A DNA stretch of 48,467 nt from Dactylosporangium sp. AC04546 (GTDB lineage: Bacteria > Actinomycetota > Actinomycetes > Mycobacteriales > Micromonosporaceae): assembly GCF_022095675.1 (NCBI RefSeq), contig NZ_JAHYSG010000092.1, positions 1 through 48,467 of the forward strand. The letters are read 5' to 3'. Numbering within the stretch: position 1 is the stretch's first letter; each line of letters opens with the position of its first letter. A model generated the notes under the pieces. That model worked only from the letters and a program-made list of their open reading frames with translations. It was not told where the DNA came from and ran no database searches. Shown in pieces: positions 19,853-24,578 of the stretch. The position numbers were made by a program, and so were the translations under genes.

Positions 19853-22093
19853 ATGACGCAACCGTCGGCGCCCGCTCCGGTCCTTTCCACCGGGGCGGGC
19901 GCCGCCGCGCGAGCCGAGCGCTCCGCCGTGCTCGACGGCTGGCTCGCCAAGGTGTACGCCGAGGCGGGCGGCACCACCGACGGCCTGGCCCTGGTCGCGG
20001 TCGGCGGCCTGGGGCGGCGCGAGTGCGCCCCGCGCAGCGACCTGGACCTGGTCCTGCTGCACACCGGGCCCTCCTCGGCCGCCGGTGACCTCGGGGCGCG
20101 CATCTGGTACCAGGTGTGGGACGCGAAGTTCGCCCTGGACCACTCGACTCGCACCCCGCAGGAGGCGCTGTCGGTCGCCCGCGAGGACCTGAAGGTCGCC
20201 CTGGGGCTGCTCGACGCCCGGCTCGTGGCCGGAGACGCCGCTCTGCTCGCCCAGCTGCACGCTGACGCCGTGGCCCAGTGGCGGGCCCAGGCCCGTTCGG
20301 CCCTGCCGCTCCTGCGCCAGCTCACCCACGACCGCTGGAAGGCCCACGGCGAGCTGGCGTTCCTTCTCGAGGGCGACGTCAAAGAATCCCGTGGTGGCCT
20401 GCGCGACTTCGGCGTCCTGCGCGGCATCGGGTTCGCCGGCGTCGCCGACGGTCCGCGACCGGCCGTCCGGGGCGCGCACCTGACCCTGCTCGACGTCCGC
20501 GACGCCCTGCACGCCGTGCGCGGCCGCCGCGTCGACCGCCTCCTGGCCCAGGACCGCGACGAGGTCGCCGAGCTGCTCGACCTGGGCGACCGGGACGAGG
20601 TGCTGCGGCGCATCGCCGAGTCCGCGCGCACCATCGCGTACGCCAGCGACGACGCCTGGCGGGCCGTCGAGCGCTGGGCCGCCCCGCGCGGCACCGCTTC
20701 ACGCCGCCCGCTCGCGCGCGACGTCGTCGAGCAGAACGGCGAGGTCGTCCTGGCCCGCGCCGCCGTCACCCCGCGCCCCGACCCGGCCCTCCCGCTGCGG
20801 GTCGCCGCGACCGCCGCCCGGGCCGAGCTGCCGATCTCGCACGCCACCCTCGAGTGGCTCGGCGGCTTCGCCGGCCCGATGCCCCAGCCCTGGCCGGCCC
20901 CGGCCCGCGACGCCCTCCTCACGCTCCTCGGCAGCGGCCCGTCCATGATCGAGGTCTGGGAGGCCTGCGACCGCTACGGCCTGGTCGTCAACTGGCTGCC
21001 CGAGTGGGCCCGCGTGCGCAGCCTGCCCCAGCACAACCCCGTGCACCTGTTCACCGTCGACCGCCACCTGGTCGAGACCGCCCTCCATGCGGCCGCCCTG
21101 GCGCGCGACGTCGACCGCCCCGACCTGCTCGTGCTCTGCGGCCTGCTGCACGACATCGGCAAGGGCCTGCCCGGCGACCACAGTGTCGTCGGCGCCCCGA
21201 TCGCGGCCGCGATCGCCGCCCGCCTGGGCCTGCCGCCGGCCGAGGTGGCCCAGGTCGAGAAGGTCGTCCGCCTGCACCTGCTGCTGCCCGACACGGCCAC
21301 CCGCCGCGACCTGTCCGACCCCCAGACGATCACCACGGTCGCCACCGCCGTCGGCGACGCCTCCACGCTCGGCCTGCTGCACGCCCTGGCCCGCGCCGAC
21401 GCCGCCGCGACCGGCCCGGCCGCGTGGTCGGACTGGAAGGGGCGCCTGATCGCCGAGCTGGTCCGCCACGTCGACCGCGCGCTCGACACCGGCGTGGTCG
21501 ACCCGCCCCCTTCACCCGCCGCGGCCCTTCCGGTGCCGGCCGGGCTGCCAGCAGTACACCTGGATGAGGACTCGGTGTCGGTGACCGCGACCGACCGCCG
21601 GGGCCTCCTGGCGTCTGTGGCCGGGTGCCTGTCCCTGCACCGCCTGGACGTCGTCACGGCCGACACCGTCACGGTCGACGGCGTGGCCCGGATGGTCTGC
21701 GCCGTCCAGCCTCGCTACGGGGGCGAGCTCGACCGCGAGGCGATCGTCTCTGATCTTCGCCGCGCGGTGACCGGCGACCTCCCGCTGGCCGAACGCCTGG
21801 CCGCCCGTGACCGCTCCTCCCGCCGCAGCGCTTCGGCCCCGCCGCGGGTCGTGTGGCAGCCGCCGTCGGCCGCTACGGACGCTACGGTGTTCGAGCTCCG
21901 CGCTACGGACACGCCGGGGCTGCTGTTCCGGGTGGCGAGCGCGTTGGAGGACGTGGGCGCGGACGTACGCTCGGCGCGCATCTCTACCCTGGGCGGCGCT
22001 GTCGTGGATGCGTTCTACCTGGCCGGGTCGTGGGACGCGGATGCTCGCGGCCGCATCGAGGCGGCGGTCCTTCAGGCGGCGAAAACGTCCTGA
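19853..22093 (+). CDS. glnD: PII nucleotidyltransferase / nucleotidyl-removing enzyme GlnD
   Basis: The 746-aa protein contains an N-terminal nucleotidyltransferase domain (VAVGGLGRRECAPRSDLDLVLL, about 45-70). An HD hydrolase domain (VLCGLLHDIGKGLPGDHS, about 425-445) and two C-terminal ACT domains (about 565-640 and 670-745) follow. It modifies and demodifies Tyr51 of PII in response to nitrogen status; in actinobacteria the modification is adenylylation. It is shorter than E. coli GlnD (about 890 aa), as usual for this phylum. It directly follows the PII gene. The ATG at 19853 lacks a ribosome site and is placed for leaderless initiation. Confidence 0.95.
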   Translation: MTQPSAPAPVLSTGAGAAARAERSAVLDGWLAKVYAEAGGTTDGLALVAVGGLGRRECAPRSDLDLVLLHTGPSSAAGDLGARIWYQVWDAKFALDHSTRTPQEALSVAREDLKVALGLLDARLVAGDAALLAQLHADAVAQWRAQARSALPLLRQLTHDRWKAHGELAFLLEGDVKESRGGLRDFGVLRGIGFAGVADGPRPAVRGAHLTLLDVRDALHAVRGRRVDRLLAQDRDEVAELLDLGDRDEVLRRIAESARTIAYASDDAWRAVERWAAPRGTASRRPLARDVVEQNGEVVLARAAVTPRPDPALPLRVAATAARAELPISHATLEWLGGFAGPMPQPWPAPARDALLTLLGSGPSMIEVWEACDRYGLVVNWLPEWARVRSLPQHNPVHLFTVDRHLVETALHAAALARDVDRPDLLVLCGLLHDIGKGLPGDHSVVGAPIAAAIAARLGLPPAEVAQVEKVVRLHLLLPDTATRRDLSDPQTITTVATAVGDASTLGLLHALARADAAATGPAAWSDWKGRLIAELVRHVDRALDTGVVDPPPSPAAALPVPAGLPAVHLDEDSVSVTATDRRGLLASVAGCLSLHRLDVVTADTVTVDGVARMVCAVQPRYGGELDREAIVSDLRRAVTGDLPLAERLAARDRSSRRSASAPPRVVWQPPSAATDATVFELRATDTPGLLFRVASALEDVGADVRSARISTLGGAVVDAFYLAGSWDADARGRIEAAVLQAAKTS

Positions 22094-22213
22094 GTTCGGT
22101 CGGCTCGCTCCGCTCTCGGAACTACGTTTGTCGATGCTCGTGTTGATCTCGCGGGACGAGCGTTGATCGACCACCGTCTGCGCTCCGCGTGTCGGCCGCC
22201 GCGCACGCCAATC

Positions 22214-22796
22214 TCGGTCGATCGACCGACCGAGTGGGTGAACTGTGTGGGGCCCCTGCGGGGTGGTGGTCGCCGCTGGTGCTCGGAGGTTCGGTCGGTC
22301 GACCGACTGATTGTCCGGCGCTCATTCGGTCGGTCGACTGACCGACTTGAGGTGGGTGTGGTGCGGCTTCAGCCGACGGGCCGGCCGGGCGGGCGAGGCG
22401 CTCGGGAGGGGCTCGGGAGAGGTCTGGGTGCGGTGGTGGCCGGCGCCGTGGTTTCGGTCGGTCGGCCGACCGATTGCCCCCTGCTCATTCGGTCGGTCGA
22501 CTGACCGACTGGAGTGGGCGTGGTCGGCTTCAGTCGACGGCCAGGCGGGCGGCCGGGCGGCCGGGCGGGCGAAGCGCTCGGAAGGGGCTCGGGAGAGCTC
22601 GTGCTGCGGTGGTGGCCGGCGCCGTGGTTTCGGTCGGTCGGCCGACCGATTGCCCCCTGCTCATTCGGTCGGTCGACCGACCGACCGAGCGGGGCGGACG
22701 GTGCGGTTTCGACCGGCCGAGCGAGCCTGTCGGGCATCGTGCGGTTTCGGTCGGTCGACCGACCGACCTGGGCGGGCGTGGTGCGGTTTCGGTCGG
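22214..22796. repeat. Array of palindromes arranged as 33-35 bp pairs in a 163-176 bp tandem repeat
   Basis: Eight palindromes of the TCGGTCGGTCGACCGACCGA type lie at 22214-22229, 22291-22310, 22326-22345, 22458-22473, 22489-22508, 22634-22649, 22665-22684 and 22747-22766; a half copy is at 22789-22796. Copies 2+3, 4+5 and 6+7 form pairs with centres 35, 33 and 33 bp apart. Each of the last two pairs joins TCGGTCGGCCGACCGA to a 20-mer through the identical linker TTGCCCCCTGCTCAT. The larger units repeat at 163-176 bp and share GC-rich interiors containing GAGGGGCTCGGGAGAG-like and GGTGGTGGCCGGCGCCGTGG-like blocks. Copies 7 and 8 are perfect 20-bp palindromes. Function unknown. Confidence 0.85.
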
Positions 22797-22842
22797 TTGC
22801 TGGCTCGACCCCAGCGACGGTCGGCGTCCGAGCCCTTGATCT

Positions 22843-22920
22843 GCGTCTCGCTCCATGATCAAGGGAAACTTCTGGCTGCCATAGCAGCCAAATCCTTCCC
22901 TTGATCATGGAGCGAGACGC
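22843..22920. repeat. Long perfect inverted repeat (25-bp arms) with nested hairpin
   Basis: Left arm 22843-22867 and right arm 22896-22920 are perfect 25-bp reverse complements containing CTCCATGATCAAGGGAA. The 28-nt interior carries a second stem TGGCTGC (22873-22879) / GCAGCCA (22884-22890) with tetraloop CATA. The structure is symmetric, so it could act as a bidirectional terminator, a structured RNA or a small palindromic mobile element. There is no coding capacity. Confidence 0.8.
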
Positions 22921-23000
22921 GAGCCAAGCGGGTTGTTGATCTTCCGTATCGAGATAGAGCGCGTCGAAGTGCGTGGCGCGAAGGAATCTGCACCGTCGCG

Positions 23001-23039: not shown

Positions 23040-24561
<1,522 letters not shown>

Positions 24562-24578
<17 letters not shown>

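Follow-up and report, generated by a model that had tools for sequence, protein, structure and literature searches.

The array lies between glnD and ffh in the window, the 48,467-nt stretch of Dactylosporangium sp. AC04546 DNA analysed here. NCBIfam models confirmed the identities of both flanking genes. A scan of the window with the 20-mer TCGGTCGGTCGACCGACCGA returned eight copies with zero or one mismatch over 553 bp, two of them exact (starts 22665 and 22747), and an additional, overlapping register of the 20-mer at 22669. The features of the locus are as follows.

19853..22093, + strand: glnD, [protein-PII] uridylyltransferase, upstream flank (NCBIfam)
22083..22968, no strand: 886-bp stretch between syntenic flanks where D. 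sucinum has 13 bp (blastn and congener spacers)
22214..22233, no strand: palindrome 1, TCGGTCGATCGACCGACCGA, one mismatch to the consensus, unpaired
22290..22696, no strand: three units with start spacings of 163 and 176 bp, one pair each
22291..22310, no strand: palindrome 2, first member of pair A
22326..22345, no strand: palindrome 3, second member of pair A, 35 bp from palindrome 2
22454..22473, no strand: palindrome 4, first member of pair B, with a perfect 16-mer inside (22458-22473)
22489..22508, no strand: palindrome 5, second member of pair B
22630..22649, no strand: palindrome 6, first member of pair C, with a perfect 16-mer inside (22634-22649)
22665..22684, no strand: palindrome 7, second member of pair C, perfect 20-mer
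22747..22766, no strand: palindrome 8, exact 20-mer, unpaired
23040..24578, + strand: ffh, signal recognition particle protein, downstream flank (NCBIfam)

The eight palindromes that the initial annotation had reported within less than 560 bp are real. Positions 22214-22796 hold eight near-perfect 20-bp dyads, whereas 70 of 80 other 583-bp windows held none and the remaining 10 held one each. The excess over composition, which the annotation had left to be checked, was confirmed: dinucleotide shuffles of 22214-22796 (n = 500) contained 0.07 dyads on average and two at most, and shuffles of the whole window a mean of 0.03 matches at ≤3 mismatches. The unit spacings of 163 and 176 bp had been given correctly, as had the identical 15-nt linker of pairs B and C (TTGCCCCCTGCTCAT). 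The reported pair spacings of 35, 33, and 33 bp are recovered when the inner perfect 16-mer TCGGTCGGCCGACCGA is taken to head the second and third pairs, whereas the 20-bp register gives 35 bp for all three. That the array makes no coding sense holds in the window according to our own gene calls, but several arrays elsewhere in the genome are translated. No Rfam family matched the window at gathering scores.

A separate inverted repeat of 78 bp with 37-bp arms (RNA fold z −13.1) was observed in the window at 22843-22920. Relatives of this hairpin were found at nine AC04546 array loci (L044, L049, L055, L056, L058, L064, L065, L068, and L069) and at one D. sucinum locus (L223), and together they make up a MITE-like hairpin family. 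Hairpin-like intergenic sequences of other kinds occur at the orthologous spacers L204, L205, and L207 in D. sucinum and L047 in AC04546, which suggests that the genus Dactylosporangium carries several palindromic families.

We searched for the 20-mer in the AC04546 assembly (13.0 Mb, 348 contigs, estimated contamination 11.5%) and in six congeners (estimated contamination 4-10%), among which D. sucinum, taken as JCM 19831, was the nearest genome compared. At ≤2 mismatches there were 292 matches in AC04546, 30 in D. sucinum, and one each in D. vinaceum (G001), G005, and G006; G003 and G004 had no match. A control with the reversed 20-mer gave no matches in any of the seven genomes. At ≤3 mismatches the counts were 348 in AC04546, 31 in D. 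sucinum, and one to four in the other congeners, with zero to three for the controls. The 305 AC04546 copies found at ≤4 mismatches fall in the window and 37 other loci and represent, among the matches listed, at least about 40 sites, three of them single-copy. Loci L071 and L075 map to the same D. sucinum contig and so look like opposite ends of a single array. D. sucinum has twelve sites, mostly intragenic, and among the seven Dactylosporangium genomes only AC04546 and D. sucinum have multiplied the palindrome. A genome search had been put forward by the initial annotation as the way to recognise a repeat family, and the motif does recur at many AC04546 sites. We found no earlier report of the family or motif in an open-access library whose coverage leaves out most subscription journals. 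The exact 20-mer was absent from viral_contigs, and L074, the one array of the 38 loci compared with plasmids, had no plasmid match; on these grounds a phage or plasmid origin was rejected.

Conservation between arrays is limited to the 20 bp and has a sharp edge, with linkers and unit lengths both specific to each array. The spacing of neighbouring palindromes (≤60 bp apart) ranges over 27-60 bp and peaks at 33, 35-36, 42-43, and 45 bp; the commonest array spacing, 36 bp (17 of 38 loci), corresponds to about 3.4 helical turns. The suggestion that a protein binds one face of the DNA was rejected on the spread of these spacings. In some arrays, such as L042, decayed units appear as double spacings. 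The 16-nt linkers of 17 AC04546 loci (e.g., L042, L046, L054, L056, and L076) have a weak common centre, GCGCTT, which may be a second site or the remnant of a common 36-bp unit.

The glnD-ffh array is not ancestral. The spacer between the two genes measures 58-74 bp in G001, G003, G004, and G006, and the 3.7-kb glnD-ffh loci of all six congeners showed no palindrome copy at ≤5 mismatches, so a conserved local site, the other possibility that had been raised for this array, is not supported. Absence from syntenic DNA was common elsewhere too. Of 40 query pieces, a total that counts the window, 34 were mapped to D. sucinum and six were not. No copy was present in the fetched syntenic DNA for 29 of them, and five were shared, with copy numbers of 11/4, 5/6, 21/4, 8/5, and 1/1 (AC04546/D. 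sucinum). Both flanks were found in 23 of the 29 copy-free loci, and in 20 of these 23 the spacer was longer in AC04546. On the chromosome of D. vinaceum, which by eye starts with dnaA, dnaN, recF, and gyrB, the 15 loci with matches of ≥84% lay at 1.8-2.8 and 7.5-11.9 of 11.96 Mb; of six weaker loci (77-82%), three were mid-chromosome (L056 at 6.08, L057 at 5.07, and L066 at 4.10 Mb) and the other three lay outside this middle stretch, on a map restricted to matches of at least ~70 bp. Gene conservation alone would be expected to produce such a pattern, and we therefore claim no bias with respect to the origin.

We compared the units of individual arrays to estimate the constraint on palindromes and linkers. 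Palindromes differed by 8% and linkers by 30%, and linkers were the more divergent part in 36 of 39 groups, three of which came from D. sucinum; the comparison used units of equal spacing, collapsed identical units, and was confined to copies with ≤5 mismatches, which favours low palindrome divergence. In the palindrome arms, 412 changes were one-sided and 10 two-sided, five of the latter complementary, against ~23 two-sided changes expected under independence; this count covers copies with ≤4 mismatches and so understates double changes. Because palindromes vary so much less than linkers and compensatory changes are not in excess, we read the palindromes as putative protein sites in preference to RNA hairpins.

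In relatives, palindrome pairs stand upstream of a gene for a TetR-family protein with a TetR_N domain, whose divergent neighbour is often a gene for an NnrU-family membrane protein together with an alpha/beta hydrolase. The AC04546 TetR gene lies at G000:C38:73182-73733; its product, P0121, has 194 aa, and a TetR 96% identical to it occurs in Dactylosporangium sp. NPDC005572. In a search of 354 genomes of the family that scored eight candidates per genome, 26 had a TetR ortholog (E ≤ 1e-35), and 23 of the 26 carry a palindrome with ≤2 mismatches within ~120 bp of it; the remaining three (G023, G370, and G015) have pairs at 3-5 mismatches. Anywhere in the genome, a match at ≤2 mismatches was present in 24 of the 26 genomes with the TetR gene vs 24 of the 328 others (p = 8e-22), and one at ≤1 mismatch in 14 of 26 vs 1 of 328. 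Within the genus, the gene is absent from exactly G003 and G004, the same two genomes that lack a palindrome at ≤2 mismatches. At all 24 TetR loci read by script, two palindromes lie 33-36 or 38-39 bp apart. The 38-39 bp cases carry a sister core, TCGGTCGATCGACCGA, and reading four bases over gives 34-35 bp. The loci of AC04546 (L116) and D. sucinum (L115) are not among the 24, and their sites were taken from coordinates; the AC04546 twin is spaced 36 bp by core centres and 38 bp by the 20-mer register. Beside the TetR gene there are nine copies in AC04546 (≤5 mismatches) and five in D. sucinum, against two at the loci read in relatives. On the strength of this synteny and of co-occurrence with the TetR gene we identify the palindrome as an operator, and the dispersed palindrome very probably derives from the operator of this TetR. 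Protein binding, with a repressor as one candidate, was among the initial proposals for the array; a sequence-specific protein, above all a repressor, is now the best-supported binder, given a twin operator adjoining a TetR gene.

The TetR proteins of AC04546 and D. sucinum are united in a single clade with a long branch (0.7), placed weakly beside that of G355, and the other Dactylosporangium TetRs group apart from it. The stretch SQIHYHF is constant in 20 of 20 aligned TetRs, and the array-bearing lineage departs from the others at nearby residues. An AlphaFold2 model of the protein (pLDDT 77.5) has TetR folds at the head of its PDB match list; 4gct ('No factor'), which we take to be SlmA, ranks 14th and shows no special closeness. 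In AC04546, a TetR-adjacent gene at L057:5426-7552 encodes an alpha/beta hydrolase fused to a glycosyltransferase-28 C-terminal domain, and a motif-based look for the NnrU-family gene at locus L057 gave no match.

The profiles of 46 operators and 306 array copies, compared over 10 symmetrised positions, were uncorrelated (rho = 0.195, p = 0.59), the operator profile being built from pairs at 23 loci after G001 was dropped by a stricter filter. Positions 5, 6, and 10 reach 0.96-1.0 in both sets, and relative to operators the arrays are more variable at positions 7 and 9 and less so at position 4.

The two array-bearing genomes differ in where the copies lie. Based on gene positions from a custom, unvalidated gene caller, 25 of 30 D. 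sucinum copies are inside called genes, with the other five at the TetR promoter, vs 17 of 299 in AC04546. Seven D. sucinum sites are singles, six of which have orthologs (L137 has none); five (L132, L135, L136, L140, and L142) align without an indel to the one to five congener sequences available per site, and L143 has gaps beside the site. The indel-free alignments imply that these five arose by substitution in near-matching coding DNA. The five other Dactylosporangium genomes have no site at ≤2 mismatches away from the TetR gene, which makes chance alone unlikely and leaves selection or templated copying. Spacings are divisible by three in 12 of 14 cases in coding arrays of D. sucinum and in 10 of 10 in those of AC04546, vs 121 of 207 for arrays outside coding sequence, so that coding arrays mostly preserve the reading frame. 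An acyl-CoA dehydrogenase carries its array as an in-frame insert in both D. sucinum and AC04546 (P0001 and P0002), and the insert is missing from eight other Dactylosporangium proteins (10 of the 120 listed matches were aligned). Three acyl-CoA dehydrogenases of other Dactylosporangium (P0021, P0031, and P0032) have different inserts at another position. The intragenic D. sucinum arrays L133 and L141 correspond to arrays outside called genes in AC04546 (L066 and L073), whose host genes therefore look broken there. Gaps that hold arrays are convergent in 12 of 29 cases vs 12 of 121 control gaps (p = 1.8e-4); unlike a regulon, the arrays avoid promoters rather than seek them. Tolerated insertion fits this convergent-gap preference as well as function does.

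We propose that the starting state was the twin operator, with centres 33-36 bp apart, that stands in the promoter of the TetR gene in relatives. Multiplication of this operator would have begun in the ancestor of the AC04546 species and D. sucinum, with new single sites appearing in genes via point substitution and growing into tandem arrays that often retained the twin spacing. About 40 sites would then have accumulated in the AC04546 species, mostly as arrays within expanded intergenic spacers like that between glnD and ffh. A TetR dimer would occupy each palindrome, cooperatively on pairs and arrays, and the arrays, with several sites each, would anchor protein at dispersed positions and at the same time pull TetR off its own promoter. 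The sequence comparisons point to operator identity and show multiplication, lineage specificity, and a stronger constraint on palindromes than on linkers. TetR probably binds the dispersed copies, and would do so cooperatively in pairs. The explanation taken whole appears likely to us. TetR binding alone does not explain dispersal to unrelated loci. The arrays might hold a selected genome-wide role as opposed to being a tolerated spread, although we lean slightly away from this. A more far-reaching version, which we regard as rather unlikely, is that a local TetR became a genome-wide array-binding protein, nucleoid-organising or division-linked, while its operator became a repeat that multiplies by substitution into coding DNA and by tandem growth, often in frame.

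The strongest rival is a selfish or neutral, minisatellite-like spread, in which operator-like palindromes, after they have formed, expand via replication slippage or template switching, with copies tolerated at the least harmful positions and TetR binding incidental. We do not favour it but take it as a serious possibility, and one compatible with operator origin, so that the two likelihoods need not sum to one. The 29 of 34 mapped loci for which the syntenic DNA fetched from D. sucinum holds no copy, the spacers enlarged in 20 of 23 comparisons, the bias towards convergent gaps, the array-specific unit lengths, the two apparently broken host genes, and the other in-frame repeat inserts in the same dehydrogenase of other Dactylosporangium are all as this rival would have them. 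It fits less well with a linker divergence almost four times that of the palindromes among the filtered copies, with the way one 20-mer and spacings of 33-36 bp recur around different linkers, and with the D. sucinum singles, which reach the consensus through substitution within genes. A titration role, with arrays as decoy operators that sequester TetR and thereby increase or sharpen the expression of the divergent operon that TetR targets, would suit a TetR promoter at which the usual two copies have become nine in AC04546 (≤5 mismatches) and five in D. sucinum, and the hundreds more elsewhere in AC04546. A few extra sites or a weaker repressor would presumably suffice for that purpose, however, and we consider titration unlikely.

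RNA hairpins acting as terminators or stabilisers in 3' regions would account for the enrichment in convergent gaps, and each palindrome could form an 8-bp stem. Among copies with ≤4 mismatches, however, the five two-sided complementary changes stand against 23 two-sided changes expected, most D. sucinum copies (25 of 30) are within called genes, and the window matched no Rfam family at gathering scores, which leaves this reading highly improbable. An REP/BIME-like element mobilised by a RAYT (Y1/HUH) transposase seems even more so. Short palindromes, often paired, mostly extragenic in AC04546 and species-specific, resemble REPs as described in PMC2817692. The same search for PF01797 that gave two matches in G003 and found the domain in 5 of 14 control genomes gave none in AC04546 or D. 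sucinum at the sensitivity used, though, and the flank consensus is missing a head of the GTAG type (GT(A/G)G). Nor was there an excess of compensatory arm changes, whereas PMC2817692 reports that Stenotrophomonas REPs preserve their pairing. An REP/RAYT origin was rejected on these three points. Of the REP/MITE-like family anticipated in the initial annotation, recurrence at many sites stands, but a canonical REP with its Y1 transposase does not. The array family is, in our assessment, operator-derived and dispersed, neither a local site nor a canonical REP family.

The closest known arrangement is that of twin TetR operators in divergent promoters, with which the family has in common the palindrome and the distance between pair members; those operators adjoin a gene whose product has a TetR_N domain. 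TetR-family operators normally occupy few sites per genome, whereas AC04546 has hundreds, mostly off promoters and in arrays. Rickettsia palindromic elements are likewise palindromic repeats kept in frame inside genes, but are longer; the AC04546 family differs from them in a 20-bp core that matches an operator and in copies that form arrays. SlmA resembles our candidate in its TetR fold and many chromosomal sites, but its sites are not known to form tandem arrays, orthologs of the AC04546 TetR look like local regulators, and an origin bias of the arrays is unsupported. According to PMC4117426, SlmA is a TetR-family nucleoid occlusion protein with many specific chromosomal SBS sites, for which dimer-of-dimers binding is cited, and it illustrates that a TetR-family protein can do a genome-wide job. 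REP/BIME elements and their RAYTs, as PMC2817692 describes them, share with the AC04546 family dispersed paired palindromes, species-specific copy number, and a partner protein that evolves fast and whose presence follows copy number. The AC04546 family differs in having no Y1 transposase match or head motif, in a partner that is a repressor, and in singles gained by substitution. It would be a dispersed bacterial palindrome family whose source is not a transposase but an operator for which a candidate binder can be named. Its stages appear to be preserved, from the twin site in relatives through the twelve mostly intragenic sites of D. sucinum to the ~40 of AC04546. The family thereby opens two questions to testing: by what route short palindromes spread in the absence of a transposase, and whether a local repressor can turn into a genome-wide DNA-binding protein.
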